A stretch of DNA of 49,487 nucleotides from Halopseudomonas sabulinigri (GCA_011053055.1 DRHT01000020.1:1-49487); one strand, 5' to 3'. Counted from the stretch's first letter, positions 19,258 through 48,215 are shown. Numbers and translations are program-made. Notes: a model not told the origin generated them from the sequence alone.

Positions 19258-19693
19258 ACATTTTCCTTGGTTATTGTTTTGTCGAAATGTTTCGGTGAGA
19301 AATGGCTATACAGCCTGTTCTACAAGGCCTAACGGACTTAATTTCCTATTTTTAGGAAAGAGGTATTGCGAAAAGTAAAACATAAATTGAACAAAGTTTA
19401 AAATTATGTTTAATTTTGGCTGTGTATGATTTGGAGCATGAAAACCGAGCGTGCCGGCGCTGATAGGAAGAGCTCTGAATAATGTGACGATTTGCTATGA
19501 TTTAAAAATCTGAATGCAGAATTTAAATCTTGATATGGAATTATATGTAACGCTCCGCTAGGATAGCGAGACGCTGGTTTAGGGAAACTGGGCGATGGTT
19601 ACCGTATTGAGGCGACTTAGCCTGAGCGTTTCATTACATCAGTAATCGGATAATTTTTATAAGTCACTGAAAATAAAAACAAAAGGAATGAAG
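19258..19693. promoter_or_regulatory. Long A+T-rich divergent intergenic region with several inverted repeats
   Basis: No gene is convincing in these 436 bases. They hold TTTCCTA/TAGGAAA (19342-19359, four-base loop), AAACATAA/TTATGTTT (19378-19411) and GATTTAAA/TTTAAATC (19499-19529). The region separates the SDR (minus) from the envelope operon (plus). These are candidate operators, and composition alone could create some of them in A+T-rich DNA. AAGGA at 19683-19687 is the ribosome site of the DUF1302 gene. Confidence 0.5.
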
Positions 19694-21358
19694 ATGAACA
19701 CTATCGACAAAACCGGTCACATGAATGTGGCGCGTAGCGCCTTAGCCGTTGCCGTTCTGATCGCCAGTGGTAACGCTTCCGCAATGCAAATCGATCTGGG
19801 TAATCCGGATATTCGCATGCGGTGGGATAACACCGTCCGCTACAACCTAGGCATGCGGGCAGAAAGCCAAGATAGCGCCATCATGAATAACCCCAATTAC
19901 GATGAGTCTGACGGGAAGTTTGATCGTGGCGACATTGTTACCAACCGCCTTGACCTGCTGACTGAGGTTGATTTGGCGTACAAATGGCATTTCGGCGCCC
20001 GTGTTAGCGCTGCTGGCTGGTACGACGACGCCTACAGTGATCGTTCGGTCGATAGCAATGTGCCTGGCTACTCCACCAGCTACAACAATGATAAATACAG
20101 CTCTGAAGTGGAGCGGTATGTTTATGGTCCTTCGGGAGAGATTCTAGACGCGTTTGTTTGGGCTAACTTTGATCTTGGGCAGGTACCCGTCAACGTGAAG
20201 GTCGGGCGTCACACCCAGTATTGGGGTGAAGGTTTGTTATTCGGTGCTCATGCTATTTCATATTCGCAAGCTCCTACTGACGCAGTGAAGGCGGTGACCA
20301 GTCCAGGGATCGAAACTAAGGAAGTCTTTTTGCCTATTGGTCAGGTATCGGCCAAAGCTCAGGTGACCAACTCGCTTTCCGTATCTGCGCAATATTTCTA
20401 TGAGTGGGATCACACCCGATTCCCTTATGGTGGCACCTACTTCGGCGCAGCGGACCCATTCTTCGAAGGCCCCGACCGTTTGCCTGCCGCGCCTGGCTTC
20501 AACCTACAGCATGCTGACTCCAAGTTTGGACGAGATTCTGCCAACTGGGGCGTGATGGCTCGCTATGACCTGCAAAGTGTTGGCGCAACCCTCGGTGCCT
20601 ATTATCGAGAGTTTGACGACTATCAAGCCTGGCTATCTCCACAAGTTGATATGACTACCGGACAGTATCGCCTGGTGTACCCGCGCGGAGTCAAACTGGT
20701 GGGCTTGAGTTACGCAGGTAATGTTGGCTCGGCGTCTATCGGTGCAGAGGTGTCTTACCGTAAAGGCGGAGCATTGAACGCGACTGGTGTTAGCACCCTT
20801 GATGATGAAGGCCCTCGCGGCAACACCTATCACGCTTTGGTAAACGCCGTGTATGGAGTGCCACGCTTCTGGATGGCGGAGAGTTCAACTCTTGTCGCCG
20901 AGTTGGTGTACAGCCACCTAGACAAGGTGACTGAGCATCAGGAGCTTTATAAAGGTGAGGGTACAGCGGCTTGCAAAGATCTGCGTACCGGCGGCGAGGG
21001 TGATAAGTCGGATGGCTGCTCTACACGCAATTACGTGGCGGCAGCTGTCAATTATACGCCGCAGTATTTGGCAATTTTGCCATCCTGGGACCTGTCTGTA
21101 CCACTGACTGTGAATTACGGAATTTCCGGTAACGCAGCTAACGCGGGCGGTGGGTCAGAAGGCGCCATGTCATGGTCCGTAGGTGCCAGGATGACATATC
21201 AGCAGCAGCACGAGTTTAGCCTGCGATATGCTGACACTGTGGCCCAGGAGAAGAACACCATCAATCCTGTTAACGGTCAGGCAATGGTAAACGGCAACGG
21301 CGCAGTCGGTGGTACCGACCGCGGCTGGTTGTCACTTACATACAAAACGTCGTTTTGA
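19694..21358 (+). CDS. DUF1302-family outer-membrane barrel-like protein
   Basis: A 554-residue protein with a signal peptide ending about SGNASAMQ, then a body rich in amphipathic beta-strand patterns (alternating aromatic and polar residues) and ending in LTYKTSF, with a terminal phenylalanine as in outer-membrane barrels. The family opening MQIDLGNPDIRMRWDNTVRY is typical of DUF1302. Such proteins occur with DUF1329, BNR and MMPL/RND proteins in steroid, terpenoid and other hydrophobic-compound gene clusters, and transport across the outer membrane is inferred. I start at 19694 because AAGGA lies six bases in front; the ATG at 19688 abuts that site. First gene of a four-gene envelope operon. 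Confidence 0.88.
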   Translation: MNTIDKTGHMNVARSALAVAVLIASGNASAMQIDLGNPDIRMRWDNTVRYNLGMRAESQDSAIMNNPNYDESDGKFDRGDIVTNRLDLLTEVDLAYKWHFGARVSAAGWYDDAYSDRSVDSNVPGYSTSYNNDKYSSEVERYVYGPSGEILDAFVWANFDLGQVPVNVKVGRHTQYWGEGLLFGAHAISYSQAPTDAVKAVTSPGIETKEVFLPIGQVSAKAQVTNSLSVSAQYFYEWDHTRFPYGGTYFGAADPFFEGPDRLPAAPGFNLQHADSKFGRDSANWGVMARYDLQSVGATLGAYYREFDDYQAWLSPQVDMTTGQYRLVYPRGVKLVGLSYAGNVGSASIGAEVSYRKGGALNATGVSTLDDEGPRGNTYHALVNAVYGVPRFWMAESSTLVAELVYSHLDKVTEHQELYKGEGTAACKDLRTGGEGDKSDGCSTRNYVAAAVNYTPQYLAILPSWDLSVPLTVNYGISGNAANAGGGSEGAMSWSVGARMTYQQQHEFSLRYADTVAQEKNTINPVNGQAMVNGNGAVGGTDRGWLSLTYKTSF

Positions 21359-21406
21359 TAAAGCGGCACTAGCTCCCAGTTAATAAACACAAGAACGGAG
21401 ATTTTT

Positions 21407-22771
21407 ATGAGATTGTCACTCGCTTTTAGCTTGGCTCTAAGTGGTATTTCAGCCTGCGCAGTAGCAGCAGTTCCTCCAGAGGAGGCCGCCCAACTTGGTA
21501 AGACCCTTACCTTGTCTGGTGCTGAACAAGCCGGCAATGAGGCGGGTACTATCCCTCCCTTTGAAGGGGGGCTCCGTACTGCCCCTGCCGGTTTTAAACC
21601 CGGCAGTGGGTACTGGGTTAATCCATTTAAAAACGAATCCCCTTTGTTTCGGATAAATGCTAGTAACTACCAACAATATATCGACAAACTGAGTGCTGGG
21701 CAGGTTGAGTTGATTAAGCGCAATTCGGACTACTACTTGGATATTTATCCCAGTCATCGTACTGCCGCCCTACCAAAAGAGGTGCTAGATGCCTCCGTTC
21801 GTAACGCCACTACCTGCGTAACGATGAACAATGGCTTGACCCTATCGCCCGAATGTCGGGGCGGTGTGCCTTTTCCGATTCCTCAGACCGGACATGAGGT
21901 CATGTGGAATCAGCAAGTGCGTTATAACGACGGTAAGTATGGAACCACAACCAGCTCTTCCAATAGCTGGCTGGTGGCCTCAAATGGGGCTGTGACTAAG
22001 GCATCTGAACAAGCCACTTTTGTTGAGCGTCCCTACTACCAGGATGATGTGGACGGTCGCGACCCGCAGATGTATGCACGCGTCTACTCGGTCACCAAAG
22101 AGCCAGCACGACGTGCTGGTGAATTGACCGGGTACATGGACTTTTTGGATCCTACCCAACAGCCGCGAAGAGCGTGGAGTTATACGCCAGGTCAGCGCCG
22201 CGTAAAGTTGGCGCCTGAGTTTGCATACGATACCCCTGTCGCCAGCATGGGGGGCTTGGAGCTGTTCGACGAGCTATTCATGTTCTCCGGTATGCAGGAC
22301 CGCTTCGAGTTCAAGCTGGTTGGTAAGAAGGAAATGTATATTCCTTATAACAGCTACGAGCTGTATTTCGACTGCAATCCTGAAACCCAGTTGATGGGAA
22401 ACCACGTCAACCCAGAGTGTGAGCGCTGGGAATTACACCGCGTATGGGTTGTTGAGGCCACCCTCAAAGGGGACCGTCGCCATGTTTACAGCAAACGTAC
22501 CTATTACCTAGACGAAGATACCTTTGGCGCGGGTCTTTACGACGCCTGGGACCAGAGCGGTCAGCTCTATCGGTCGATGATGCTGGGCGGTGTTCAATTT
22601 TACGACCAGGATATTCCGTACATCGTTAAACACTCTATCTATGACTTTAATAAAGGTATGTACGGTCTGATTAACGACGCGCTCAGCGGTGGTTATAAAG
22701 TATTGGATGCGCCGCGTTCAGAACGTGATTTGAATCCGGAAGCTGTGGTCGCTCGCGAGACTTCCAGATAG
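21407..22771 (+). CDS. DUF1329-family exported protein (copy 1)
   Basis: A 454-residue protein with a short signal peptide (LALSGISACAVAA) and the DUF1329 pattern: PPFEGGLRTAPAGFKPG near residue 50, GVPFPIPQTGHEVMWN, GGLELFDELFMFSG, and a conserved C terminus with GGVQFYDQDIPY. DUF1329 has a LolA/LolB-like fold in structure predictions and is almost always paired with DUF1302. It starts after a GGAG site, 48 bases behind the DUF1302 stop. The 452-residue copy at 32481-33839 is clearly paralogous along the full length. Role in moving a hydrophobic substrate through the periplasm is inferred. Confidence 0.9.
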   Translation: MRLSLAFSLALSGISACAVAAVPPEEAAQLGKTLTLSGAEQAGNEAGTIPPFEGGLRTAPAGFKPGSGYWVNPFKNESPLFRINASNYQQYIDKLSAGQVELIKRNSDYYLDIYPSHRTAALPKEVLDASVRNATTCVTMNNGLTLSPECRGGVPFPIPQTGHEVMWNQQVRYNDGKYGTTTSSSNSWLVASNGAVTKASEQATFVERPYYQDDVDGRDPQMYARVYSVTKEPARRAGELTGYMDFLDPTQQPRRAWSYTPGQRRVKLAPEFAYDTPVASMGGLELFDELFMFSGMQDRFEFKLVGKKEMYIPYNSYELYFDCNPETQLMGNHVNPECERWELHRVWVVEATLKGDRRHVYSKRTYYLDEDTFGAGLYDAWDQSGQLYRSMMLGGVQFYDQDIPYIVKHSIYDFNKGMYGLINDALSGGYKVLDAPRSERDLNPEAVVARETSR

Positions 22772-22785
22772 CCCAAAAGCTGATT

Positions 22786-22884: not shown

Positions 22885-24048
22885 ATGATTTTGATCGACC
22901 TGATGAGTGGGTGGCTGCTGCGAAGGCTACCCCGGTTATTGGTGGTTTTTTTCTTCGCAAATGCAGTTTTTTCTTTTGCTGTGGCAGGCTCTTTGGCGTC
23001 GGGTACGGCACCAAAACAAGATGAGTCAGCCACTGTTGGGCTGTTCGATCCACTCGATAATGTCGGAGCGATTCAGCCAGTCCCTGAAACGCAGCCGACC
23101 TTAAGCGTCGCCCGAGCGGGGAAACGAATCATAGGCGTGGGTTTGCGTGGTTTGATCATGATGTCAAACGATGAGGGTGAATCCTGGACGCAAATTGATA
23201 GTCCTGTGGGTAGTGATCTTGTACAGGTCCGCTTTCGCGATGAGAAGCATGGATGGATTGTCGGCCATGACTCGGTTTTTCTGGCTACGGAGGATGGCGG
23301 TCAGACATGGTCGGTGTTGTTGGACGGCCGCAGTCTTCTCACGTTACTAAAAAATTATTACGCAGGTGTGGCTGATCTCGATGAGTTTGAATCTGAGAGC
23401 ATGTTGCGTGAGTTCGAGCTCGCAATGAACACCTCTTCTGACGCCGATGTAATGGCAACCCCCTTTCTTGATGCTTACATAAATGAGCAGGGCGAAGGAT
23501 ATGTGGTGGGGGCATTTGGCATGATTCTGCGCACGACTGACAACGGTGGACACTGGGTTCCATGGATAGAGCGAACTGACAATGATCGGCGCATGCACCT
23601 CTATTCTGTAAGCATGTCAGGTTCAGAGGCTTTTATTAGCGGTGAGCAAGGATTGGTGATGCGCCTGGATGAAAGTTCGCAGCGTTTCGTCAAAACACCA
23701 ACTCCGTATACGGGTACCTTCTTTGGCGTGAGTGTCTCTGCAGATACGGTCTTGGTGTATGGCCTGCGGGGCAGTCTCTTTGCCAGCAAGGATCTTGGTG
23801 AGTCATGGAGCAAGGTGGAAACCGCCCAAGAGTCTGCCATTGTTCAAAGTCTGCCTATCGGTAAAAACAAAGCCCTGCTGATTAGTCAGAGAGGGGGTGT
23901 TCTGCAGATAAATACCAAAACTCTCGAACTGAAGAAAGTGGCTGACGATTATCGAGGCGCGGTTTTCTCTGCAGCGGTATTAAATGCATCTGACAAGTTG
24001 CTACTGGCACAGTTTTCTGGCGTCCGAACAACAGAATTGAAGCCCTAG
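22885..24048 (+). CDS. YCF48/BNR-repeat exported protein
   Basis: A 387-residue protein with an N-terminal hydrophobic segment (LLVVFFFANAVFSFAVAGSL) consistent with a signal peptide and then repeated beta-propeller blades of the YCF48/BNR type: LIMMSNDEGESWTQI, VFLATEDGGQTWSVL, MILRTTDNGGHWVPW, SLFASKDLGESWSKV. Such proteins are regular partners of MMPL/RND genes in this operon type. The photosystem II assembly label often attached to this family is a fold relationship only. The start ATG follows GAGGA. The molecular role, perhaps as a periplasmic adaptor for the transporter, is inferred. Confidence 0.87.
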   Translation: MILIDLMSGWLLRRLPRLLVVFFFANAVFSFAVAGSLASGTAPKQDESATVGLFDPLDNVGAIQPVPETQPTLSVARAGKRIIGVGLRGLIMMSNDEGESWTQIDSPVGSDLVQVRFRDEKHGWIVGHDSVFLATEDGGQTWSVLLDGRSLLTLLKNYYAGVADLDEFESESMLREFELAMNTSSDADVMATPFLDAYINEQGEGYVVGAFGMILRTTDNGGHWVPWIERTDNDRRMHLYSVSMSGSEAFISGEQGLVMRLDESSQRFVKTPTPYTGTFFGVSVSADTVLVYGLRGSLFASKDLGESWSKVETAQESAIVQSLPIGKNKALLISQRGGVLQINTKTLELKKVADDYRGAVFSAAVLNASDKLLLAQFSGVRTTELKP

Positions 24049-24168
24049 TTTAAAACGCGATCGACGCTAGCCGGCTGGGCATCCAGCTGACCCGGATTTA
24101 AATAGCCAGAATGGCGAGGTGGGTCGGCGCACAAAGTGGCCGCTGCCCGTCGATCCTCGGAGATAGAG

Positions 24169-26691
24169 ATGGTCAATCAGAAGAATACCAATGGGATGCC
24201 AGTCGTCCGAAATGTAAAGGATTTTGATAAGAAGTCCGGTGGCCTGTTCGAGCGATTAATTTTCAGTAACCGAATCCTGGTTATTCTGTGCTGCTTGGCT
24301 GCGACGGTGGTGCTTGGTTTTTTTGCGACCCGTATTGAGGTGAACGCCAGCTTTGAACGGATGATTCCGGTTAATAATCCGTATATCAAGAATTACCTTG
24401 AGTATAAGAACGAGCTGCCCGGTCTGGGTAATAGCATCCGGGTTGTGGTTGAAAATAAGACGGGGGATATCTATGACCCGGAGTATCTTGACGTTCTTCG
24501 AAAAGTTAACGATACCCTTTATCTCATCCCCGGCGTTGACCGTTCCTGGATGCGCTCACTCTGGATGCCCATCGTGCGATGGAGAGAAGTAACTGAAGAT
24601 GGTATTAGTGGCGGAGCAGTCATGCCTGCTAACTATGACGGCAGCGAAGACAGCATTCAGGCGTTGCGACGTAATATCTTTCGAGCAGCAATATCGGGAA
24701 GCCTGGTAGCGAACGATGGTCGCTCGAGCATGATTGTAGCACCCCTGCAAGACACTAACCCGCAAACGGGTGAGCCGTTACATTACGGTGATTTTTCCGA
24801 CCAGTTGGAACAAAAAATCCGTGCTTATGAAAGTGACTCAATAGGTATCCATATAGTTGGATTTAGCAAGCTAGTTGGTGACCTGATTGAGGGGTTAAAG
24901 GTAGTGATGTTGTTTTTTGCCATCTCCGTGGCAATCGCATCGATATTTGTTTATCTCTATACGCATTGTTTGCGTAGTACGTTGTTATTGGTTGGCATTG
25001 CAGTTACCGGTGTGGTGTGGCTGTTGGGCTTGATGCAGTTGCTCGGTTATGAGCTGGATCCTTACTCGATTTTGGTACCCTTTCTGATTTTTGCTATTGG
25101 CCTCTCGCACGGCACGCAAAAGATGAACGGGATCTTGCAGGATATTGGGCGCGGCACTCATAAGTACGTCGCGGCACGTTACACCTTTCGCCGGTTGTTT
25201 CTGACTGGTTTGACAGCATTGCTGACCAACATAGTTGGTTTTGCAGTGCTGGCGATCATCGACATTCCGGTTATCCGTGACTTGGCTCTTACCACCAGTG
25301 TTGGTGTCGCGGTGCTCATTTTTACCAAGCTCATCCTGATTCCAGTGGCGCTTTCTTATATCGGCGTCAGTGAGAAAGCGGCGCAAATTGCTATAGAGAA
25401 AGACCAAGCGGGCCAGGCCAACAAAAATTGGCTTGGTAGAGTATGGAAAGGATTAGACCGCTTTACTGAGCGCAAATGGGCACTCGCTGCAATTGGTGCT
25501 TCAATTATTGTGACGGCAGGCAGCACTGTTCTGATGATGGATCTGCAGATTGGTGACCTTGACCCTGGCGCGCCTGAACTGAGGCCAGACTCTCGTTACA
25601 ACCAAGACAATGCCTATATCACCTCACATTATGGACTATCGAGTGATCAGTTTGCCGTAATAATGAAAACGGATGTTGACGGCTGTCGTTTTTATCGACC
25701 GTTACAAACAATGGATCGTTTGGCTTGGAAGTTACGGCAAACTGAGGGGGTTCAAACCACTAGCTCCCTGGCCGACACCGTACGCTTTGTCTCTTCAGGC
25801 ATGGCTGAAGGCAGTGCTAAGTGGTTGACCATCAGTCGTGATCAGGCAATCACGAACGCATCAGTGGATGCTGCCATGATCTCTTCACCAGGCATTACAA
25901 ATCAGAACTGTTCGGTTACTCCGTTGGTAGCGTACCTCTCCGATCATAAAGCCGAAACGCTTAACCGGGTGTTGGGGGTGGTTGAGGACTTTGCAGCCGA
26001 ATACAACACTGCCCCTGACGCTGAGCGTCCGGTGCAGTTTCTGCTGGCTGCGGGTAATGCGGGCATAGAGGCAGCAACAAATATTGAGGTAGAGAAGGGC
26101 ATTATCACAATGTACTTCGCAGTGTACGGGGCTACGGCGCTTCTTTGTTTGCTGACTTTCAGAAGCATCCGCGCCACTTTAGTCGCACTTATTCCGCTCA
26201 TCATGACCACGATCATCTGCAAGGCGTTGATGGTCCTGCTCGGTATTGGGCTCAAAGTGGCCACGTTGCCGGTAATAGCCGTAGGAGTTGGAGTTGGGGT
26301 GGATTACGCACTGTATCTTTTGAGTGTGCAGGTTGCGGTGCAAGAACGTGGCGAAAGCCTTGCCGTTGCTTATCGTCGATCACTCGACTTCACCGGGCGA
26401 GTGGTTGCACTGATTGGCCTAACAATGGCAGCCGGCGTCATAACCTGGGCTTGGTCACCAATCAAATTCCAAGCTGACATGGGGATTCTGCTGACCTTCA
26501 TGTTCCTTTGGAACATGCTCGGGGCGCTGATTTTGATCCCCGCGCTCTCACATTTTTTGCTAAATCCCAAAAGTACTGCTGGCACCCCTGGTGACAGTAC
26601 GGACGAAGCGGGTGCTCCGCTTTCCAGTACCGCGTATACACATTCTGCAGGTCAGACATCTTATAAGCAGGAAGAGGTCGCGAGCCTTTGA
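24169..26691 (+). CDS. RND/MMPL-family transporter
   Basis: An 840-residue inner-membrane protein with the two-fold RND layout. TM1 lies near residues 36-54, followed by a large periplasmic loop, a group of five hydrophobic helices (residues ~245-405), a second single helix and loop (residues ~435-460 onward), and a last group of helices (residues ~645-795). The stretch GVGVGVDYALYLL in the second group is a typical MMPL/RND feature with the intramembrane Asp/Tyr. I start at ATG 24169 (GGAGA eight bases before); a GTG at 24136 has no such site. It ends the envelope operon. MMPL/RND proteins of this class are tied to lipid and hydrophobic-substrate movement; direction is not determined. Confidence 0.9.
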   Translation: MVNQKNTNGMPVVRNVKDFDKKSGGLFERLIFSNRILVILCCLAATVVLGFFATRIEVNASFERMIPVNNPYIKNYLEYKNELPGLGNSIRVVVENKTGDIYDPEYLDVLRKVNDTLYLIPGVDRSWMRSLWMPIVRWREVTEDGISGGAVMPANYDGSEDSIQALRRNIFRAAISGSLVANDGRSSMIVAPLQDTNPQTGEPLHYGDFSDQLEQKIRAYESDSIGIHIVGFSKLVGDLIEGLKVVMLFFAISVAIASIFVYLYTHCLRSTLLLVGIAVTGVVWLLGLMQLLGYELDPYSILVPFLIFAIGLSHGTQKMNGILQDIGRGTHKYVAARYTFRRLFLTGLTALLTNIVGFAVLAIIDIPVIRDLALTTSVGVAVLIFTKLILIPVALSYIGVSEKAAQIAIEKDQAGQANKNWLGRVWKGLDRFTERKWALAAIGASIIVTAGSTVLMMDLQIGDLDPGAPELRPDSRYNQDNAYITSHYGLSSDQFAVIMKTDVDGCRFYRPLQTMDRLAWKLRQTEGVQTTSSLADTVRFVSSGMAEGSAKWLTISRDQAITNASVDAAMISSPGITNQNCSVTPLVAYLSDHKAETLNRVLGVVEDFAAEYNTAPDAERPVQFLLAAGNAGIEAATNIEVEKGIITMYFAVYGATALLCLLTFRSIRATLVALIPLIMTTIICKALMVLLGIGLKVATLPVIAVGVGVGVDYALYLLSVQVAVQERGESLAVAYRRSLDFTGRVVALIGLTMAAGVITWAWSPIKFQADMGILLTFMFLWNMLGALILIPALSHFLLNPKSTAGTPGDSTDEAGAPLSSTAYTHSAGQTSYKQEEVASL

Positions 26692-26784
26692 GATATCAGG
26701 TGGATGATGTTTGAGATCACCGCTTTGAATTGAAACGCCCGCCGCTGTTAATGCGGTAGGCAAGAACAACAGATGGAGAAAAGT

Positions 26785-27750
26785 ATGTTTGAGCTTTTGA
26801 TGAGTGCCGACATGATGGTGCCAGATCCTGATGGTATGACCGAGTTGTTGGTCGACAAATTAGGCATACATAAACATGAACGCTGGCGCCAGGCTTTCGA
26901 TGATCATCCTTATATTGCTCACTTTCTCCGTGTGCACAAGTCGTTAGCTGTTTCGCCAACTCGTGTCGAGCCGCAATGGCATCTGGATCGCCCGAATCCA
27001 GGCGATCCGATGTTTCATGACTTTCTGGAAAGTCTGAAAGCATTTCAGGGAAAGCACCGTCCCATGTTGACCCACTCCATCGTACTTGCCTTGCATGGCG
27101 ATAAGTTCGATGCGCTGGTCAGCAAGCTCATGCGTCGCGGTTTGCCGTTTCGCATGGCGCAGCGGACTCCGGATATGCCTTTCGACCGGCTATGGCTGGG
27201 TGCTACCCCTGAAAAGCCGTTCTATGACCCTGTGGTAGATGGCGGGCTGTGTATCGAAATCATGCCGGTTGAACCCCTGCAGCTGCCCCAGGAAACCTTT
27301 GCAGTACCGCCGGTGCAACCTAGGGACTCCAAGCCAGGCGATATGGTCCGGGTTTCTGCGCGTGGGTATCTGGTGCGGGATCTGAATGAGACGCTTCGTC
27401 GCGTTTCAACCAATCTAGATTGGGAGCCGAGTGGGACGGTTGAGACCATTAAAAGCGAGGGTTACCTTCGTGCGAGGATGGGCTTTACCTTGCCTAATAG
27501 CGCCACCCTTGATCTGATTGAGGCTACCCGCTGGAATAGTGAGGCCGGCTTGTACCTTAATAGCTGGGGCCCCGGACCATATTACATTCGCATTGCGGTG
27601 AATGATCTCGCGGCAAAAGCCGAAGACCTGCGTGCTCGGGGCACCAAATTTACCTGGATCGAGACAAGTGACGCAGTGGCAGGAAAATCACTGATTCGCG
27701 TCGACTCCTACGAGCTCAATGGTCAATTGTTTGAGTTTGAGGAGTGTTGA
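26785..27750 (+). CDS. Tandem VOC (glyoxalase-like) domain protein
   Basis: A 321-residue protein that looks like two fused VOC modules. The first contains LTHSIVLALHG and GGLCIEIMP; the second contains YLVRDLNETLRRVSTNLDW, YYIRIAVNDLAAKAEDL and the ending GQLFEFEEC. The classical metal ligands are incomplete: the first module offers one His and one Glu, while IRIAVND takes the place of a His in the second. It may bind rather than transform its substrate, or be a divergent enzyme. The ATG at 26785 follows GGAGA; an earlier ATG at 26773 has no ribosome site. The next gene follows immediately. Function unknown. Confidence 0.7.
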   Translation: MFELLMSADMMVPDPDGMTELLVDKLGIHKHERWRQAFDDHPYIAHFLRVHKSLAVSPTRVEPQWHLDRPNPGDPMFHDFLESLKAFQGKHRPMLTHSIVLALHGDKFDALVSKLMRRGLPFRMAQRTPDMPFDRLWLGATPEKPFYDPVVDGGLCIEIMPVEPLQLPQETFAVPPVQPRDSKPGDMVRVSARGYLVRDLNETLRRVSTNLDWEPSGTVETIKSEGYLRARMGFTLPNSATLDLIEATRWNSEAGLYLNSWGPGPYYIRIAVNDLAAKAEDLRARGTKFTWIETSDAVAGKSLIRVDSYELNGQLFEFEEC

Positions 27751-27751
27751 G

Positions 27752-40351: not shown

Positions 40352-41587
40352 TTATGTACGGTGTGCTATTTCCCAGGCTTTGAGATCGAAGCCCGGGGTG
40401 CTGGCCTCACTGATGGTGAGTTCGGCTGGACGAGAAAGCAGTTTCTTCCCGGCCATGTGATCACTTGGCCGGTTGCAGGACTCAACCGCAACCAGGTGAT
40501 CCTTGCGGAAGCAGAGCACGGAAAACTGTTGCGAACTCGGGTCGCCTAACGTGACGGTGGTGTCGAAGCCGGTAGACAAACCAACGATCTGCAGCTTGAG
40601 ATTCCCCTGATCGGTCCAAAACCAAGGCGTGGCGATGAACGGCGACGGTTTCCCGAGCAGTCTTGCTGCAACGCTACGGGCCTGATCCATAGCGTTGGGC
40701 ACGGATTCTATGCGGGTGTGTTCGCCGTTGTTGTGTATGCACGGGAAGCATGCCACATCGCCAATAGCGGAAATATGGGGGTCGTTGGTTAAGAGGTTGG
40801 CATCGACCTTAATACCATTGTCAATCTCAAGGCCAGCCTCGGCTGCCAAGGTGATGTTCGGGATGATGCCGATGCCATACACCACAAGGTCAGCCGGCAA
40901 CTCTTCGCCGTTCTCCTTTACGACCCCAGTTACTCTCCCGTTGGCTTGGTTTATCCGGCTGACGCCTTGATTGAAGTGAAAATTGACGCCCCAGCCCTGA
41001 TGCGCTTCGAGGAAAAGCTTCGACATTTCGTGAGAGATAGCGCGCGCCATGGGACGGTCACCACGGTCAACCAGTTGGACTGACTTTCCTAGTGCCGCAG
41101 CGACAGCAGCAAACTCCAATCCGATAAATCCGCAGCCGATCACCACTACATTCTCCGCCTCGTTCATCCGGGGGGAGAGGGCATCGGCGTCGGCCAGGGT
41201 TTTGATCCCAAACACACCGTCAACATCATCACCAGGGATGGATAGCAGGCGGTTATGGCCACCAGTAGCAAGAACCAAGTGGTCGTAATGTGCGCTTTTT
41301 CCGTTGGCCAGAACCACAGTGTGGTTTTGGCGGTCTATCTCGACCGCGGTGGTGTGCAGCAACTCGATATTCTGCTCGCTGAGGAAAGCAGCGGGGCGGA
41401 ACGCCAGATTATCCGCCTGTATTTTGCCCAGAAGGTAAGCTTTGGAGAGCGGTGGGCGCTGGTAAGGCAATCCCGGTTCATCCCCAATAAGGGTAATGGC
41501 GCCGGCGTAGCCGCCTTGCCGCAAAGAAGCTGCAACCTGAAAGCCGGCTTGGCCTGCACCCACAATGACTACTGAAGAAATCGACAT
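40352..41587 (-). CDS. NAD(P)H-dependent ferredoxin reductase (putidaredoxin reductase type)
   Basis: A 411-residue FAD flavoprotein. The FAD loop is VIVGAGQAGFQVAASLRQGG (residues ~7-26), the NAD loop is VVVIGCGFIGLEFAAVAA, and the second FAD contact is ISAIGDVACFP. It closely fits reductases that feed [2Fe-2S] ferredoxins for P450 and ring-hydroxylating dioxygenases. It lies 15 bases behind the ferredoxin gene, and a terminator follows. Together they supply electrons, probably to the P450 at 36142 transcribed from another operon. Confidence 0.93.
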   Translation of the reverse strand: MSISSVVIVGAGQAGFQVAASLRQGGYAGAITLIGDEPGLPYQRPPLSKAYLLGKIQADNLAFRPAAFLSEQNIELLHTTAVEIDRQNHTVVLANGKSAHYDHLVLATGGHNRLLSIPGDDVDGVFGIKTLADADALSPRMNEAENVVVIGCGFIGLEFAAVAAALGKSVQLVDRGDRPMARAISHEMSKLFLEAHQGWGVNFHFNQGVSRINQANGRVTGVVKENGEELPADLVVYGIGIIPNITLAAEAGLEIDNGIKVDANLLTNDPHISAIGDVACFPCIHNNGEHTRIESVPNAMDQARSVAARLLGKPSPFIATPWFWTDQGNLKLQIVGLSTGFDTTVTLGDPSSQQFSVLCFRKDHLVAVESCNRPSDHMAGKKLLSRPAELTISEASTPGFDLKAWEIAHRT

Positions 41588-41602: not shown

Positions 41603-41923
41603 TCAGTATTGAGATTCGGGGAGTCGAAGCACCATCCCTTCCATATTGGCGCTCACTGTCAGTTGGCAGGTCAGGCGGCTGTTCGCTTGACGCTCGCTCG
41701 CGTACTCGAGCATGTCCGATTCAGTCTCCTGCAGTTCAGGCATTTCGGGCAGCCAGGTATCATCAACAAATGCGTGACAAGTGGCACAGGCGCACGCACC
41801 ACCGCAGTCCCCCTGAATCCCTGGAACCATGGCTGCAAGTGCGGCCTGCATAACGGACTGTCCGAGTTCGGCGTTGACTTTATGCTCGGTGCCATTGTGT
41901 TCAATGAGCGTAATTGTCGGCAT
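41603..41923 (-). CDS. [2Fe-2S] ferredoxin, adrenodoxin/putidaredoxin type
   Basis: A 106-residue ferredoxin. The cluster ligands are C40, C46, C49 and C86 (C-x5-C-x2-C then TCQL), and an additional C44 lies inside the binding loop. The acidic EMPELQETESDML segment is the usual docking site for reductase and P450. It sits between an MFS gene and the reductase gene in a three-gene operon. It is the likely electron carrier of the P450, although a second ferredoxin is encoded at 45296. Confidence 0.94.
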   Translation of the reverse strand: MPTITLIEHNGTEHKVNAELGQSVMQAALAAMVPGIQGDCGGACACATCHAFVDDTWLPEMPELQETESDMLEYASERQANSRLTCQLTVSANMEGMVLRLPESQY

Positions 41924-41952
41924 GAAATATCTCCTTTTATTCTACGTGGCAG

Positions 41953-43224
41953 TTAACGGGAAACAGCCCCAGCGCCGTTAAAATTGGGCGCGCGGCCTAG
42001 GGTCAGAATTAAAATAGGCCCGAGGATGGTGCAAATTACGCTGTAAACCAGCATGGATGAATATGAGCCTGTCGCGGTAAGGAAGGCTCCAAAAAGCAGG
42101 GGCGCAAGGGCTGCTGCCACGGTGTTTAAGCCTTGGTGCACCCCAAATAAACGCCCGTACTCCTTCATGCCAAAATAGCGAGCGACAAGAAATGCTGCGA
42201 TATCGAATTCAGCTCCGGCACCGAAGCCAACGAGTACGGCTGCTAGAGCCATAAGCCAGAAGTCATTGCTGTTACCCAGAAAGATGAGGCAGCCAATTGC
42301 AGGCATTGTCAGGCTGATAGCTGACACTAGAGGTGGCCATACACGGTCTAGCAGATAACCAATAATTACTCTGCCGCCAGTCAGCGATATGCCAAAGCAA
42401 CCGAAAATCAAACTTGCATCTTCTGCAGAGATACCTTTGTCGCGGAGCATAGGAACTGTGCTGGTAACCAGCCCTACTATGGCTGAGATGACAAGGCTTA
42501 GCGCAAGATTGCAGACCCAGAATTTCTTAGAAGACAATCCCTCTTTAAACGTCATCCCGGGAAGTTGGCTAGTATTTAATTGGCCAGCTTTTGGCCCTGT
42601 TTGAGCTTTCAGTTTTTGTGGCAGAGAAAACCAAAGTAACGTTATGGGTAACAGCACTGCGATGTTCAGAAGTGCGAGAATAACGAACGCTGCTCGCCAA
42701 TCCCACAGGCTAATTCCCCATGACAACATCGGTGGCAAGACCGCCGCTGTCAGGCCTGTACCCGATAAGCCAATGGCTAATGCGAGGCCTCGATTTTTGT
42801 CGAACCACATATTCAGAAGCTGGGTCCAGGTGACGGCAAGACAGCCCATGCCTAGCAAAGGGAGAAGTGCGAAGGCGAGATAGAGCGTCCAGATAGAGCC
42901 ACCGATCTGTGTGGTAGCTAGGTAGCCTATTGATATAGCAATGAGCGAAATGACAGTTACACGCTTCATTCCGAAGCGAAGGTTAAGCCAGCCAACCAAT
43001 TGCAAAGATATTACTGCGCTGCCAAACAGGAAGGTGATCGCTGCCTGAAGAGCTCCTCGCTCCCATCCAAACGCTTCCTCCAGCGGGATGACCAGCGTGC
43101 CAAACCCATACAGAAGAGAGGCATTTATGCTGATCGCAATGCCTATCAAGGATAAAAGCAATATCCGCCATCCGACACGGAACTCAGCTAGATCAACCGC
43201 TGCTTCGCTTTTGGATGAATGCAT
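41953..43224 (-). CDS. MFS transporter, monocarboxylate/oxalate-formate (OFA-like) type
   Basis: A 423-residue membrane protein with 12 hydrophobic segments and two six-helix halves split by a loop near residues 195-225. The stretch LLPLLGMGCLAVTWTQLLNMWFDKNRG in TM4/5, with an aromatic followed by FDKNRG, is like the RxKR-type loop of monocarboxylate/OFA transporters. Motif-like GISLTGGRVIIGYLLDRV is in the second half. It heads the ferredoxin/reductase operon, so substrate uptake of an organic acid is inferred. The start ATG follows AAAGG. Confidence 0.9.
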   Translation of the reverse strand: MHSSKSEAAVDLAEFRVGWRILLLSLIGIAISINASLLYGFGTLVIPLEEAFGWERGALQAAITFLFGSAVISLQLVGWLNLRFGMKRVTVISLIAISIGYLATTQIGGSIWTLYLAFALLPLLGMGCLAVTWTQLLNMWFDKNRGLALAIGLSGTGLTAAVLPPMLSWGISLWDWRAAFVILALLNIAVLLPITLLWFSLPQKLKAQTGPKAGQLNTSQLPGMTFKEGLSSKKFWVCNLALSLVISAIVGLVTSTVPMLRDKGISAEDASLIFGCFGISLTGGRVIIGYLLDRVWPPLVSAISLTMPAIGCLIFLGNSNDFWLMALAAVLVGFGAGAEFDIAAFLVARYFGMKEYGRLFGVHQGLNTVAAALAPLLFGAFLTATGSYSSMLVYSVICTILGPILILTLGRAPNFNGAGAVSR

Positions 43225-43296: not shown

Positions 43297-43396
43297 CAAT
43301 TCTTAATGTCAGAATATTTGATCTGTTCTTTGATGTCCAACTGATCATCGTAGAATTTGAACACAAAAACAATAAGTGACTAAGGAAAAACGTTAT

Positions 43397-45046
43397 ATGC
43401 GATGGCTTAGTAGCTTCTCCATGGGCGCCAAACTCCTTTTTGCCCCTGCTCTCATTGTGCTTCTGCTTATCGGTGTGTCCGCGATTGCATACGATGGTTT
43501 GGCGCGCCAGCAGGGGGTTCTTCAGGAAGTTGAAGAGGTGCGATTTCATCAATATCAGCGTGCGCTCGAGATAGCCGCTGCTTCCCAAGCTGCGATGGTT
43601 GGGTCTTATGCGGCAGTTGTTCAGTTAATTCAAACGGAAGGTCATTCGTCTCAGGAAGAAATGCAATTTTACGTGGAGGATATGCGCGCTAGCGTTCATG
43701 ACATGAGCGTTGATATAGAGCGTGGTCTCGCTAACGGCACAGGGTTCAGCGATGAGGAAAGAACTCTCTATGAAACCATGGGCGAGCAGGCAAAGGCTTT
43801 TGCGCAGGGGGTTGATGACCTGGCTGAGGCGGCATTGACGTCGCCTTATCAGGCGCCCTCACTTTTGGGTTATGTGCGTGCTGACTATACGCGTCTGCAA
43901 GGGTTGCTATCTCGCATGCTCGCTCTTCAAGAGGAGCTGTCCGCTGATGCTTTTTCAACTGCCAACGAGACGGCAAATTCGGTAACACACGCGCTTTATA
44001 TGGCGGTATTTGTTGCCATTGGTTTGGCTTTGTTGGTGGGGCTACTAATGAGACATCAGGTCTTGCGCTCCATTCGGGCTATAGAGCGCGCGGCATTAAA
44101 GCTCAAGGACGGCGATTTGACGCACAGGGTAGAAGTGATCGGGCGTGATGAAATAGCCCAAACAGCGGTCGCTTTCAATGCGTTGATAACAAGTTTGCAG
44201 ATTGCGGTGGAGCAGGTTAAACGCGTGGCAAGCTCTGTCGGCGACTCGGCTGAGGAGCTTGTTGTTACGTCAAATCAGGTTGCTGTGGGGGCTAACGAGC
44301 AAGCCAGTGCTGCGGTCCAGGCGTCTACTACCGTCGAGCAGATGAGCTTAGGCATCGCGTCCATTTCCTCCCACGCAGAGGGGTTACGGGTCTCAGCGGA
44401 AAATAGCTTAAGAGGCGCTGAGGCAGGGAAGTCTGCTCTTAATCGATTGCTGGAGGAAATCCTTCGTGTAAGGCACGCATTTAAAGCCATCACTGCCTCC
44501 GTCGGGGATTTTGTATCTAGTACTACGGCAATAACGGACAGTATTAATCGGGTCAAGGAGTTGTCAGCGCAAACGAATTTGTTGGCTTTGAACGCGGCGA
44601 TCGAAGCTGCTCGTGCTGGTGAGAGTGGACGAGGTTTTAGTGTCGTTGCGGACGAGGTAAGGAATTTGGCGCAGCGATCTGCGGTAGCTGCCAACTCCAT
44701 CAATCAGCTGACTGAAGCGCTTGAGGGGCAGTCAGCAAGCGTTAGCGTAGTGTTGGGTGAAGGCGCTGCTGCACTCGATAGTAGTCAAAGTCTGCTGGAA
44801 GAGCTCGAGAAGGTGTTATTGGAAGCGGCCCAGCTCGTAGGGGCGTCTAGCAGTGGAGTTCGTGAAATTGCCTCTGCGGTGCAGGTTCAGAATGAGGGCA
44901 GCAACGAGATTTCATTGGGTATTGAGCGTATCGCGAAGATGGCAGAGGAGGGTGATGAAATATCGCATACGGTGTCTGCGGCCGTGGCATCTCTGCGTGA
45001 AATAGCTGAAGAGCTTGCCCTTTCGGTAAGGCATTTCAGAACCTGA
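43397..45046 (+). CDS. Methyl-accepting chemotaxis protein
   Basis: A 549-residue inner-membrane chemoreceptor. TM1 lies about residues 10-35 ([20 protein letters not shown]); a helical periplasmic domain of about 165 residues, four-helix-bundle in pattern, follows; TM2 is near residues 200-222; then a HAMP domain ([20 protein letters not shown]) and the signalling domain with its invariant hairpin tip [26 protein letters not shown] precedes the ATG at 43397; a GTG at 43376 is in frame but lacks a site. It is divergent from the MFS gene. It probably senses the compound the surrounding genes degrade; the ligand is not known. Confidence 0.93.
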
Positions 45047-45295: not shown

Positions 45296-45517
45296 ATGAG
45301 TTCAGATAAGGTGATTTTTCGCGCGGTAGCTGATCGTGGTCGCTGCTGTGGCTATGGGCTATGTGCATCCATTTGCCCTGAGGTATACAAGTTAGACGGT
45401 GATGGGTTGGTTTACTTCGATGACGACAAGGTCCCACCGGAACTGGAAGAGGCGGCCCGGGAAGGAGCAGAGGCCTGTCCTGCCGAGGCAATTTGGCTGG
45501 AACAAATCCAGAGCTAA
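45296..45517 (+). CDS. Small [3Fe-4S]-type ferredoxin, P450-associated class
   Basis: A 73-residue ferredoxin. The cluster loop starts CCGYGLC and the distal ligand is in ACPAEAI, giving C17, C23 and C61. The position between them that holds cysteine in [4Fe-4S] ferredoxins is Y20; the actinobacterial P450 ferredoxins have His there (CxxHxxC). A further cysteine, C27, stands just before Pro28. This predicts a [3Fe-4S] cluster, or a [4Fe-4S] with a non-cysteine ligand. The start follows AGAGGAAAAA. It precedes an SDR gene by 35 bases and heads a four-gene catabolic operon. A second carrier for the P450 is inferred. Confidence 0.9.
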   Translation: MSSDKVIFRAVADRGRCCGYGLCASICPEVYKLDGDGLVYFDDDKVPPELEEAAREGAEACPAEAIWLEQIQS

Positions 45518-45552
45518 GAACCGCTCACCTGAATACCAAGGAGCAAAACGAT

Positions 45553-46311
45553 ATGAAACGCCTGGAGGGGAAGGTCGTATTGATCAGCGGTACCGGCGGT
45601 GGGCAGGGCAGGGCAGCTGCGCTGCGGTTCGCACGTGAAGGTGCCATCGTCGTCGGCTGTGACACAAACCGTAAAGAGCATGCGCAGACCGCTCAACTGA
45701 TGGCAGCGGAGGGTTACTCACTATATGGCAATGCGCCAATTGACCTGGGTGACCACGAGCAAGTGCGAGACTGGGTCGAGTCTGCAGTCGCCGCTCACGG
45801 CAAGATTGATGTCCTTTATAACAACGCCTCGGCAGCGCGCTTCGCTCCGGTGCAGGACATGAGTATAGAGGATTGGCACTTCACCATTCGCAACGAGGTC
45901 GACCTGGTCTTCTATGCGACCAAATATGCATGGAATCATCTGGCTAAGCAGAAGGGCGTGATTATCAACGTGTCTTCTACTGCCGCATGGGGAGGCTCGA
46001 AAGTGGCTGGTATATCGGCCCATTCTGCGGCCAAGGGCGCAGTAGTTTCGTTCACTCGTCAGCTCGCTGTTGAGGGGGCGCCGGTGGGGATTCGCGCCGT
46101 CAGTCTCAGCCCAGGATTTATTGCCACCCCTGGAACAGCAGCGTTCATGGAGAACCCGCAAGCGCGAGCTGCATTGCTCGACGGTGTTTTGATGGATCGA
46201 CCTGGTGAGCCGGAGGAGGTCGTCGCAATGGCACTCTTCATCGCTTCGGACGAAGCTTCGTTCATCACCGGGTCGGATATCGTTATTGATGGTGGTTTGC
46301 TTGCGATCTGA
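45553..46311 (+). CDS. SDR-family protein with His in place of the catalytic Tyr
   Basis: A 252-residue classical SDR fold with cofactor loop SGTGGGQG (12-19), an Asp at the end of beta-2 (CDT, favours NAD), YNNA, and NVSS (S141/S142). The YxxxK motif reads H157-S-A-A-K161, so Lys and Ser remain but the tyrosine is histidine. The end ITGSDIVIDGG is normal. The start ATG 45553 follows AAGGAG; an earlier in-frame ATG at 45493 overlaps the ferredoxin gene. It follows the ferredoxin and precedes a ring-cleaving dioxygenase. If active, it probably makes the dihydroxy-aromatic substrate or oxidises an alcohol. Confidence 0.88.
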   Translation: MKRLEGKVVLISGTGGGQGRAAALRFAREGAIVVGCDTNRKEHAQTAQLMAAEGYSLYGNAPIDLGDHEQVRDWVESAVAAHGKIDVLYNNASAARFAPVQDMSIEDWHFTIRNEVDLVFYATKYAWNHLAKQKGVIINVSSTAAWGGSKVAGISAHSAAKGAVVSFTRQLAVEGAPVGIRAVSLSPGFIATPGTAAFMENPQARAALLDGVLMDRPGEPEEVVAMALFIASDEASFITGSDIVIDGGLLAI

Positions 46312-46374: not shown

Positions 46375-47316
46375 ATGGACATTATTGGCATTGGCTATCT
46401 TGGCTTTGAAGCTACAGACCTTGATGCATGGCGTGATTATGGTCCGTCAGTGATGGGGTTTGGGCTGGGGAAAAACCCTGACAGAGATCCCGACTCGCTT
46501 TATTTTCGTATCGATGACCGGCGTCATCGTTTTGCTTTTCACCCAGGCAGTGTTGATCGTCTGTCCTACATAGGTTGGGAAGCCAAAGGTCGGATGGAAT
46601 ACAAGCAGGCATTAGCACGGTTCTGTGAGGAGAGCATCGACTTTGAGGTTGGTGATCAGGCATTGTGTGAAATGCGCGGCGTCAAGGAGCTGATCCGGTT
46701 TTTTGATCCTGTGGGGTTTCAACACGAATTGTTTTATGGACAAAAGTGGACGCCGGATTCCTTTGTTGCCGGCCGCCGACATGGTGGCTTCCTAGCCAAT
46801 CACCGGGGATTGGGCCATGTGGTGTTGATGTCTCCGGATTACTCCGATGAGCTTGAACACTTTCTTATCAATATCATGGGCTTTCACTGGTATGGATCGG
46901 GAGCAGGAAAAGGTCGCACTGGTTTTTTCCGTTCTAAGCTGAACACCTATACCAGTCACGATATTGCTTACGGGCATGCGCCTGGTCGCATGGGTATACA
47001 GCACATCGGTTTGTTTGTGAGTAGCATTCGAGATGTTGGCGAGACCTACGATATCGTCAAAAAGCGTGAGTTGCCGTTGATGATGACGCTGGGTCAGCAT
47101 GCTCAGGACCCTCATGTGTCTTTCTATCATTTCTCACCATCGGGTTTTGCTTTTGAATGCATAGGCGAGATTGAGCCTTGGCACGATGATGGCTTTGAGC
47201 TGAACCCTGAGGTAATGAGCGTTTGGGGGCATGAAATTGTTGGGCCAATACTCGGGCCAAGCGTTAAAACGCCTGAAGAGGTGCGTGACCCCACCTTCGT
47301 CCCCAAGAATGGTTGA
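46375..47316 (+). CDS. Type I extradiol (BphC-like) ring-cleavage dioxygenase
   Basis: A 313-residue two-domain VOC enzyme. Iron ligands line up with BphC: H148 (GLGH), H210 (GIQH) and E261 (FAFE), versus H146, H210 and E260 in the Burkholderia enzyme. The second-shell H195 (TSHD) and Y251 (SFYH) are also kept. It should cleave a catechol next to the hydroxyls with Fe(II) and O2. The N-terminal domain is the usual degenerate one. I start at the ATG at 46375; an ATG at 46336 is in frame upstream. The next gene starts inside its stop codon. The aromatic substrate is unknown. Confidence 0.9.
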   Translation: MDIIGIGYLGFEATDLDAWRDYGPSVMGFGLGKNPDRDPDSLYFRIDDRRHRFAFHPGSVDRLSYIGWEAKGRMEYKQALARFCEESIDFEVGDQALCEMRGVKELIRFFDPVGFQHELFYGQKWTPDSFVAGRRHGGFLANHRGLGHVVLMSPDYSDELEHFLINIMGFHWYGSGAGKGRTGFFRSKLNTYTSHDIAYGHAPGRMGIQHIGLFVSSIRDVGETYDIVKKRELPLMMTLGQHAQDPHVSFYHFSPSGFAFECIGEIEPWHDDGFELNPEVMSVWGHEIVGPILGPSVKTPEEVRDPTFVPKNG

Positions 47317-48215
47317 GCTTGCGTCTCGCTCGAATCCGAGATGTTAACGGGCAGACTGGCTGGGCCGTGCTATGTGTGGAGACGGGGCAGGCACGATGGA
47401 TATTCGGCCAATTTGCTGATTGGGCAAGAAAGTTGACGCGCTGCCAGTCGGCGGCGCTTGAACTTTGTGTAGATGCTCTACAGCCCGGAGATTTTAGTAT
47501 TCTCACTCCTGTTGAGCCTGGCGCCCGTATTTTTGGCATTGGATTGAATTACTTGACGCACCTCCAACGCCTAGGGAGCGCAGAGCCACCTCATCCGTTG
47601 TCCTATATGAAGCCAGAGTCTGCACTGGTTCCGCACCTGGGTGACATTCTTTACCCGGCAATGACGCAAGAGCTTGATTATGAAATTGAGTTGGTGGCCG
47701 TAGTGGGGCGCCCGCTTGAAGACGATGTTAGCGCCATATCCAGTCTACTTGGCTACACCATTGGTAATGATGTCAGTGCGCGTGATGCCGGCAGAGCTTT
47801 GGGTAGGCTTGACCTTTTTACGCAGAAAGCGATGGATAAAACGACCCCGCTCGGACCCTGGATAGCCTTGAGAGAAGAGGCCGGTGGGGATGCTCAGCCA
47901 GAGCTTGATATGCAGCTAATGGTCAATGATGAGGTAAGGCAGCAAGACAATACTCGCGAGATGTTGTTTCCAATGGAGGAGCTACTTAATTATCTGGACG
48001 CGCGCGTGAAGCTGCGTGCGGGGGACTTGGTGTTTACCGGATCAACACATGGGGTGGGGTTGGAAACCGGCAGGTTTCTAAGGCCTGGCGACCGCGTGAG
48101 CGCAACAGTTCAGGGGATTGGCACCTTGTTCAACGTTGTTGGCAATCCGCGGCGGTTGGCGGAATCTCGGAGGGTAGGTCGGTTGGGTTTTCCGGTAATA
48201 GCGACGCAGAAGTGA
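47313..48215 (+). CDS. Fumarylacetoacetate hydrolase-family protein
   Basis: A 300-residue FAH-superfamily enzyme. The family stretch FGIGLNYLTH, the metal-binding acidic set DYEIELVAVVG and GNDVSARDAGRALGRL, and FTGSTHGVG are visible. These enzymes hydrolyse or hydrate the ring-fission product, or isomerise it. The start is TTG at 47313, overlapping the dioxygenase stop, or TTG at 47319; no ATG fits. Coupling to the dioxygenase says it probably acts on the ring-cleavage product. Which reaction (C-C hydrolase, hydratase, decarboxylase) cannot be told. Confidence 0.88.
   Translation: MSLRLARIRDVNGQTGWAVLCVETGQARWIFGQFADWARKLTRCQSAALELCVDALQPGDFSILTPVEPGARIFGIGLNYLTHLQRLGSAEPPHPLSYMKPESALVPHLGDILYPAMTQELDYEIELVAVVGRPLEDDVSAISSLLGYTIGNDVSARDAGRALGRLDLFTQKAMDKTTPLGPWIALREEAGGDAQPELDMQLMVNDEVRQQDNTREMLFPMEELLNYLDARVKLRAGDLVFTGSTHGVGLETGRFLRPGDRVSATVQGIGTLFNVVGNPRRLAESRRVGRLGFPVIATQK

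Follow-up and report, generated by a model that had tools for sequence, protein, structure and literature searches.

The window examined in this study, the whole of contig C20 (49,487 bp) from a Halopseudomonas sabulinigri genome of 3.82 Mb and 99.5% completeness, very probably contains roughly one half of a Dit-type island for the catabolism of abietane diterpenoids, judging from its gene content, and its substrates are most likely the conifer-type resin acids (abietic, dehydroabietic and palustric acid). An earlier note on this DNA had proposed a single catabolic island for a hydrophobic, probably cyclic compound, and the wide co-occurrence of its neighbourhoods in other genomes bears this out; the same note could name no pathway for the gene set, whereas comparison with an LB400-like genome reveals a fit to the Dit island. 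A formerly unnamed island is thereby connected to resin-acid degradation, and genes that had no function, such as those for a conserved protein of 343 amino acid (aa) residues and a CrtO-like enzyme, acquire testable roles.

The comparison concerns genome G160 (9.7 Mb; replicons C3 of 1,471,779 bp and C2 of 3,363,523 bp), which we take to be Paraburkholderia xenovorans LB400. Of the 27 window genes at 18406-49349, 24 have homologues within a stretch of approximately 78 kb on one replicon (C3:597-675k), 18 of them at 52–76% identity and six at 26–48%, and three have no match; the low values belong to the [2Fe-2S] ferredoxin (48%), two DUF1329 proteins (41 and 40%, with one shared gene), the DUF1302 protein (37%), the YCF48 protein (34%) and the chemoreceptor (26%). 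The same stretch contains homologues of 22 of the 25 genes scored on contig C26 of the window’s own genome, among them the dioxygenase alpha subunit (73%), the CoA ligase (74%), a thiolase-like protein (80%), a second P450 (69%) and an IclR regulator (59%). Genome-wide, the CrtO-like orthologue in G160 stands at 70% against 30% for the next match, and the BphC-type orthologue at 67% against 34%. The same island is also present in genome G046. LB400 is described as a 9.73-Mbp genome of two chromosomes and a megaplasmid in the available part of a review that makes no mention of diterpenoids (PMC12117332). According to the available text of another paper (PMC6210171), its 1.47-Mbp megaplasmid bears an 80-kb Dit island that enables the strain to grow on abietic, dehydroabietic, palustric and 7-oxo-dehydroabietic acid. 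It is from the LB400-like gene content combined with this published island that the window receives its name.

The individual Dit components point the same way. The joint presence of dioxygenase alpha and beta subunits, a thiolase/SCP-x-like protein, an acyl-CoA ligase, FAH enzymes and an IclR regulator suggested the dit genes of resin-acid degraders, and DitA-, DitC-, P450-, CoA ligase-, IclR- and IOR-type genes (IOR, indolepyruvate-ferredoxin-oxidoreductase-family 2-oxoacid oxidoreductase) are common to the present island and that of the LB400-like genome. The alpha and beta subunits on C26 are 73 and 59% identical to proteins encoded at G160 C3:604-606k, the alpha query having one match in its own genome. 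DitA3 is a [3Fe-4S]/[4Fe-4S] ferredoxin, and a small ferredoxin with the motif CxxYxxCxxxCP, Fer4_13/Fer4_15 domain matches and 56% identity to an LB400-like protein is encoded at 45296-45517. The extradiol dioxygenase is 67–69% identical to the product of G160 C3:664k, which we infer to be LB400 ditC, with the next match there at 34%. Two P450s, putatively of the DitQ/DitU (CYP226) type, are likewise present, at 75% (window) and 69% (C26) to the LB400-like pair; the literature found on CYP226 and DitU offered no means of telling the two apart. By description in the available text of PMC13063091, the dit clusters of Pseudomonas abietaniphila BKME-9 and Pseudomonas abieticivorans share the steps of the DitQ P450, DitA, DitC, DitF, DitH and DitI. 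They differ in being described as comprising 19 or 24 genes, within 34.6 kb in P. abieticivorans (PMC10710418 and PMC13063091).

Several observations weigh against this identification. The equation of C3 with the LB400 megaplasmid depends on gene content and on replicon lengths. Gene order differs between the two islands; the LB400-like stretch has no counterpart of the alpha/beta hydrolase, the Bcr-type MFS transporter, the MFS_3 transporter or the leucine-type liu genes, its chemoreceptor is just 26% identical, and the DUF1302, DUF1329 and YCF48 proteins reach merely 34–41% identity. No protein among the best 120 of 247 BphC relatives bears the name DitC, source names being generic. In the available portion of PMC10710418, Pseudomonas dit clusters are said to overlap that of LB400 only partially, and the spread of ditA1 mainly by horizontal transfer is doubted for other bacteria.

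It could be argued from such differences that the island, while Dit-like, is tuned to some other isopropyl-bearing aromatic or polycyclic terpenoid, for example of marine or cyanobacterial rather than conifer origin. Its hosts include marine lineages (Marinobacter, LSUCC0057, Porticoccaceae, Colwellia and Paraglaciecola), three genes are without LB400-like counterparts, and the uptake genes are the part most unlike LB400, so that the substrate range may differ. Conversely, the key catalytic genes remain at 65–80% identity (BphC-type 69, P450s 75 and 69, CrtO-like 70, dioxygenase alpha 73, CoA ligase 74, thiolase-like 80%), and abietic and dehydroabietic acids are reported from marine and estuarine cyanobacteria in the available text of PMC4800451, meaning that a marine host requires no different substrate. 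We regard this alternative as improbable and favour conifer-type resin acids.

The island recurs as a unit in other bacteria. When the 343-aa protein was used to scan GTDB species genomes, 37 loci in three proteobacterial classes were returned, with Halopseudomonas, Marinobacter, Stutzerimonas, Thauera, Aromatoleum, Paraburkholderia, Acidovorax, Zoogloea, Massilia and Azospirillum among the hosts. Within neighbourhoods of up to 10 kb per side, several of them truncated by contig ends, the marker was accompanied by a small companion protein at 35 loci, a P450 at 34 and the CrtO-like gene at 30. The BphC-type gene was present in all 22 marker genomes searched out of the 37, the best match being 66–92% identical; two of these genomes hold a second copy (71% and 64%), and the remaining matches do not exceed 33%. 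When the window and 11 of these 22 genomes were read over wider stretches, CrtO-like, P450 and BphC genes were found in 12 of 12 islands, as was the 343-aa gene on which the selection was based, and an acyl-CoA ligase, the small companion, SDR d, an IclR regulator, the thiolase-like protein and a ring-hydroxylating dioxygenase were found in 9–11 of them. The island is one unit and the association of its genes is not due to chance, the common set spanning alpha-, beta- and gammaproteobacteria, marine groups included.

The earlier note had allowed for several unrelated loci, should the operons prove independently regulated and such neighbourhoods never co-occur; when the gene set was sought in other genomes, it was found together. 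Gene order and strand do differ between islands, the TetR, IclR and LysR genes suggest several regulons, and approximately 86 kb separates the marker from the BphC-type gene on a Caulobacter plasmid. Set against the constancy of the CrtO-like, P450 and BphC genes across three classes, the 22 of 22 count for BphC and the presence of IOR alongside the marker in 13 of the 14 marker-bearing genomes of the genus, these features leave unrelated loci a highly implausible explanation, and the single-unit reading stands. As a separate observation, both the 343-aa gene (75% and 71%) and the BphC-type gene (71% and 75%) occur twice in the Stutzerimonas stretch G022:C16 385-480k, the doubled genes being positioned at 38.1k, 62.6k, 68.3k and 81.9k.

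The limits of 19258..48215 first assigned to the island proved too narrow, as the unit stretches leftward to approximately 4456 and rightward onto contig C26. To the left of SDR a lie a LysR gene, the IOR gene, a full liu set, CoA-transferase subunit genes and a thiolase gene, in an order that is identical in P. abyssi and H. laoshanensis. Pseudomonas abyssi MT5, the closest named relative among the records returned (343-aa protein 99%, window genes 75–100%) and the basis for placing the window’s genome in the Halopseudomonas group, holds the whole island continuously on a single 78.8-kb contig, to which the right end of the window and an end of C26 align at 26882 and 26884, within three bases of each other. 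C26 contributes the other half, including the ring-hydroxylating dioxygenase, CoA ligase, second P450, acyl-CoA dehydrogenases and a thiolase. The last 144 bp of the window (49344-49487) do not align to P. abyssi at this location and are repeated identically at the end of contig C52, so that the third MFS gene (361 aa here, 531 aa in P. abyssi) is broken off by repeated DNA. The repeat resembles the end of an insertion sequence, IS21-like by eye.

Based on these assignments, a route may be proposed. Sensing would be performed by the dedicated chemoreceptor and uptake by the DUF1302, DUF1329, YCF48, MMPL and MFS proteins, following which the two P450s, served by the [2Fe-2S] ferredoxin and its reductase, would oxidise C-7. 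Conversion of non-aromatic abietanes to 7-oxo-dehydroabietic acid requires an aromatisation to which review PMC6891630, in its available part, assigns no enzyme; in view of this known need and of their co-conservation, the CrtO-like flavoenzyme, the 343-aa protein and the small companion are candidates for isomerising or aromatising the substrate. By orthology, the C26 dioxygenase together with the small ferredoxin would form the 11,12-dihydrodiol, in line with the reported DitA product, an 11,12-diol of the 7-oxo compound (available text of PMC13063091 and PMC6891630). An SDR would yield the catechol, the BphC-type DitC would open the ring, FAH and amidohydrolase enzymes would presumably cut the chain, and the CoA ligase, acyl-CoA dehydrogenases, crotonases and thiolases could degrade the remainder. 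Metabolites downstream of DitC are described as poorly understood, and most dit genes as functionally uncharacterised, in the available text of PMC13063091.

What becomes of the aromatic ring once DitC has acted is the subject of a new proposal made here, namely that DitC opens the ring on the C9-C11 side, that 4-methyl-2-oxopentanoate is released, and that the island IOR and a repeatedly recruited liu set consume it; we consider this about as likely as not. The isopropyl group of abietanes is located at C13 (available part of PMC6891630). Extradiol opening on the C9-C11 side followed by hydrolysis, hydration and retro-aldol cleavage would release C11-C12-C13 with the isopropyl group, a fragment corresponding to 4-methyl-2-oxopentanoate, the 2-oxo acid of leucine, which the IOR-type enzyme would convert to isovaleryl-CoA, with the liu, CoA-transferase and thiolase products carrying it to acetyl-CoA. 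Resin-acid degradation would, if so, finish through leucine catabolism. Were the C12-C13 side opened, isobutyrate would result, and the liu genes would then be of no use. A link of resin acids to leucine or isovaleryl-CoA was not found in the open-licence literature as covered by titles, abstract starts, term counts and top-ranked papers, and may be in print elsewhere.

The distribution of IOR and liu genes bears on this proposal. The comparison covered 37 genomes of the genus, of which 14 contain the 343-aa marker and 23 do not. Island-type IOR (82–100%) occurs in 13 of the 14 and none of the 23 (Fisher p = 4e-9), and two copies of the methylcrotonyl-CoA carboxylase (MCC) beta subunit gene (E<=1e-200) in 11 of 14 against 0 of 23 (Fisher p = 4e-7), these counts being phylogenetically non-independent. 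The marker genomes without two MCC-beta copies are G181 and G196, whose sole copy is that of the island, and G185, which is 75% complete and has none; the marker-free genomes possess a single copy (19) or zero (4). In 13 of the 14, both IOR and MCC-beta share a contig with the marker, at a distance of 21–40 kb from it. A distant IOR relative (47–48%) was found in two genomes of the genus, one of them marker-free. Several betaproteobacteria carry further IOR copies elsewhere in the genome. Two close MCC-beta copies, one of them beside the island, were observed in five of 14 genomes searched (G000, G001, G005, G007 and G022, i.e. the window’s own and four other gammaproteobacteria), while the stretches read in the other nine contained no MCC-beta copy. 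The island is bordered by liu genes in Stutzerimonas, with the same gene order, and also in Marinobacter and on a plasmid of Massilia putida, where the arrangements differ. In a tree of 31 MCC-beta proteins (11 island, 15 other and five from marker-free genomes, a selection that does not include every copy), island copies are spread over more than one clade, no fewer than four changes of label are required by the starred branches, and the Marinobacter and Stutzerimonas island copies are sister to their own chromosomal copies. The simple reading of this tree is that liu genes were recruited repeatedly.

The proposal also faces difficulties. The published product 2-isopropylmalic acid (available part of PMC6891630) is not obviously on the proposed route; it suggests that an isopropyl fragment is released and leaves the route undecided. 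Gene conversion between two liu copies could mimic part of the MCC-beta tree. Sixteen islands were examined (the window, P. abyssi, the 11 read over wider stretches, G160, G046 and the Massilia plasmid), some in stretches shorter than the island; IOR is present in 13 and the liu set in six, being absent from the stretches read in the other ten. The LB400-like island possesses IOR and CoA-transferase genes and lacks the liu set, and a Marinobacter genome has liu genes beside the island and no IOR match at E<=1e-60.

Such absences would be expected if the liu genes were a spare leucine-degradation copy and simply a neighbour linked to the island, a reading that would displace the leucine step alone. 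The island was perhaps inherited once in the genus, so that the counts of 11 of 14 and 0 of 23 lack phylogenetic independence. However, Marinobacter, Massilia putida and the pseudomonads differ in how their liu genes are arranged and in where these fall in the tree, which suggests that recruitment occurred more than once; none of the 23 marker-free genomes of the genus yielded a second close copy, and IOR, a possible maker of isovaleryl-CoA, accompanies most islands. A mere neighbour appears to us the less probable explanation, albeit one of some weight, when compared with consumption of 4-methyl-2-oxopentanoate by the IOR and liu products. The set agrees with the known liu pathway in encoding HMG-CoA lyase, both MCC subunits, a hydratase and an isovaleryl-CoA-type dehydrogenase, and differs from it in being an additional copy, linked here both to a catabolic island and to an IOR-type oxidoreductase.

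The genes identified in the window are collected in Table 1. All gene types listed in the earlier note for its interval were recovered by Pfam or profile matches, including an envelope quartet (DUF1302, DUF1329, YCF48/BNR and MMPL; 19688-26691) and two ferredoxin options for the P450, of the [2Fe-2S] (41603-41923) and Fer4_13/Fer4_15 (~45296-45517) types. Its four SDRs exist, although only three are inside the interval, the fourth (18406-19257) ending one base outside. Its list had omitted the second DUF1329 protein (32481-33839), the 343-aa protein, the small companion and the truncated third MFS transporter. Classic steroid genes had been noted as absent and, for the families listed among the best 25 matches per protein, no steroid-type model scored above its cut-off: HsaC reached 156.2 against 450, KstR 22.6 against 280 and 3-ketosteroid-delta-1-dehydrogenase 26.9 against 789. 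Steroid catabolism was rejected on these grounds, as was the biphenyl bph pathway (BphC equivalog TIGR03213, 198.7 against a cut-off of 366.45 bits). Degradation of abscisic acid, ionone or apocarotenoids, an idea derived from the CrtO-like gene, found no fitting literature and was superseded by the LB400-like comparison. The extradiol dioxygenase shares fold family, domains and metal-site motifs with the BphC and HsaC enzymes, the motifs being present in the protein encoded at 46375..47316; it differs in scoring below both cut-offs and in having at most 36% identity outside its own lineage among the matches listed.

Table 1. Genes of the window, with position, strand and basis of assignment (percentages are amino acid identities; LB400-like refers to the island of genome G160).
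Feature	Position	Strand	Basis and remarks
Zinc-type dehydrogenase (flanking)	181-1107		Same place in P. abyssi and H. laoshanensis
FdhD-type gene (flanking)	1245-2111		Same place in P. abyssi
Molybdopterin oxidoreductase (flanking)	2108-4444		Same place in P. abyssi and H. laoshanensis
Thiolase, putative acetoacetyl-CoA end of leucine arm	4456..5703	-	Pfam Thiolase_N/C; position matches H. laoshanensis and Stutzerimonas islands
CoA-transferase subunit	5762..6412	-	PF01144; 63% homologue at LB400-like C3:592790, near island edge
CoA-transferase subunit	6415..7113	-	PF01144; 65% homologue at LB400-like C3:592088
HMG-CoA lyase (liu)	7154..8059	-	PF00682; no homologue in LB400-like stretch
MCC alpha (liu)	8056..10095	-	Biotin carboxylase domains
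Methylglutaconyl-CoA hydratase-type crotonase (liu)	10049..10879	-	PF00378; place within liu set
MCC beta (liu), island copy	10876..12483	-	PF01039; second genomic copy at C47, 91%
Acyl-CoA dehydrogenase, isovaleryl-CoA dehydrogenase-type (liu)	12538..13719	-	76% M. putida island relative annotated isovaleryl-CoA dehydrogenase
IOR, island type	13746..17312	-	NF009588, 1718.8 bits (cut-off 952)
LysR regulator, divergent from IOR gene	17441..18349	+	PF00126/PF03466; 58% LB400-like
SDR a	18406..19257	-	INRAAC where catalytic Tyr expected; 76% LB400-like
DUF1302 protein, outer-membrane by family	19688..21358	+	PF06980; 37% LB400-like
DUF1329 protein a	21407..22771	+	PF07044; 41% LB400-like
YCF48/BNR-repeat protein	22885..24048	+	PF14870; 34% LB400-like
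MMPL/RND transporter	24136..26691	+	PF03176; 55% LB400-like
Two-domain VOC protein	26773..27750	+	PF13669; 73% LB400-like
Crotonase	27719..28564	+	PF00378; 63% LB400-like
SDR b	28592..29422	+	Classical YxxxK; 59% LB400-like
TetR regulator	29442..30119	-	PF00440; 52% LB400-like
SDR c	30183..30995	+	No catalytic Tyr/Lys, LSTAAR instead; 60% LB400-like
Single-domain VOC protein	31000..31404	-	PF00903; 56% LB400-like
Alpha/beta hydrolase	31450..32421	-	PF12146; no homologue in LB400-like stretch
DUF1329 protein b	32481..33839	-	PF07044; 40%, same LB400-like gene as DUF1329 protein a
CrtO/CrtI-like FAD enzyme, candidate C-ring desaturase/aromatase	34477..36066	+	NF045689 below cut-off; 70% LB400-like
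Cytochrome P450, one of the island’s two, DitQ/DitU-type by orthology	36142..37419	+	PF00067; heme motif FGWGAHMCIG; 75% LB400-like
343-aa conserved protein (U343), island marker	37446..38477	+	No Pfam match at E<=10; 68% LB400-like
Small protein, NTF2/SnoaL-like by eye	38527..38880	+	No Pfam match; 54% LB400-like; start codon uncertain, ORF opens 38440
Bcr/CflA-type MFS transporter	38960..40189	-	TIGR00710 above cut-off; in three other gammaproteobacterial islands; none in LB400-like stretch
Ferredoxin reductase	40352..41587	-	PF07992/PF14759; 61% LB400-like
[2Fe-2S] ferredoxin, beside ferredoxin reductase	41603..41923	-	PF00111; 48% LB400-like
MFS transporter	41953..43224	-	PF07690; 53% LB400-like
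Methyl-accepting chemoreceptor	43376..45046	+	PF00015; 56-88% in five gammaproteobacterial islands; 26% LB400-like
Single-cluster ferredoxin, DitA3-like	~45296..45517	+	CxxYxxCxxxCP; PF13459/PF13370 (Fer4_15/Fer4_13); 56% over 77% of ORF, LB400-like
SDR d	45493..46311 (first ATG 45553)	+	HxxxK replacing YxxxK; 65% LB400-like
Type I extradiol ring-cleavage dioxygenase (DitC-type, BphC-type)	~46375..47316	+	PF22632/PF00903; 67-69% LB400-like
FAH-family enzyme, one of the island’s three FAH-type genes	47313..48215	+	PF01557; 55% LB400-like
MFS_3 transporter, truncated at aa 361	48264..49349	+	PF05977 positions 2-356 of 524; 531 aa in P. abyssi

A number of the island enzymes depart from their families. 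SDRs a, c and d lack the catalytic Tyr of YxxxK and display NRAxC, LSxxxR and HxxxK respectively (motif placed by eye), a loss that is maintained in the island orthologues shown (9 of 9, 8 of 8 and 13 of 13), and as a consequence these three may differ from the usual alcohol dehydrogenases. Both in H. laoshanensis (L107:2793-4381) and on C26 (25085-26670), the thiolase/SCP-x-like protein has a ChsH2-type OB-fold protein as its partner. Ltp2-ChsH2 is an aldolase of steroid side chains, and by analogy with this pairing DitF may be an aldolase and not a thiolase. The best solved-structure match of the CrtO-like flavoenzyme is the phytoene dehydrogenase 4dgk (E 9e-22), and we deem this enzyme the best candidate for the aromatisation, perhaps in concert with the 343-aa protein.

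Regarding the 343-aa protein itself, one source labels a 77% relative as containing an AttH domain, for which Pfam provides no support. More distant relatives (38–39%) are encoded on plasmids of Paraburkholderia sprentiae (L114) and Mycobacterium branderi (L115), within other acyl-CoA-rich clusters that include P450 genes; the 41 kb shown include no annotated ring-hydroxylating or ring-cleavage dioxygenase, a hint that the 343-aa family also serves a second pathway.

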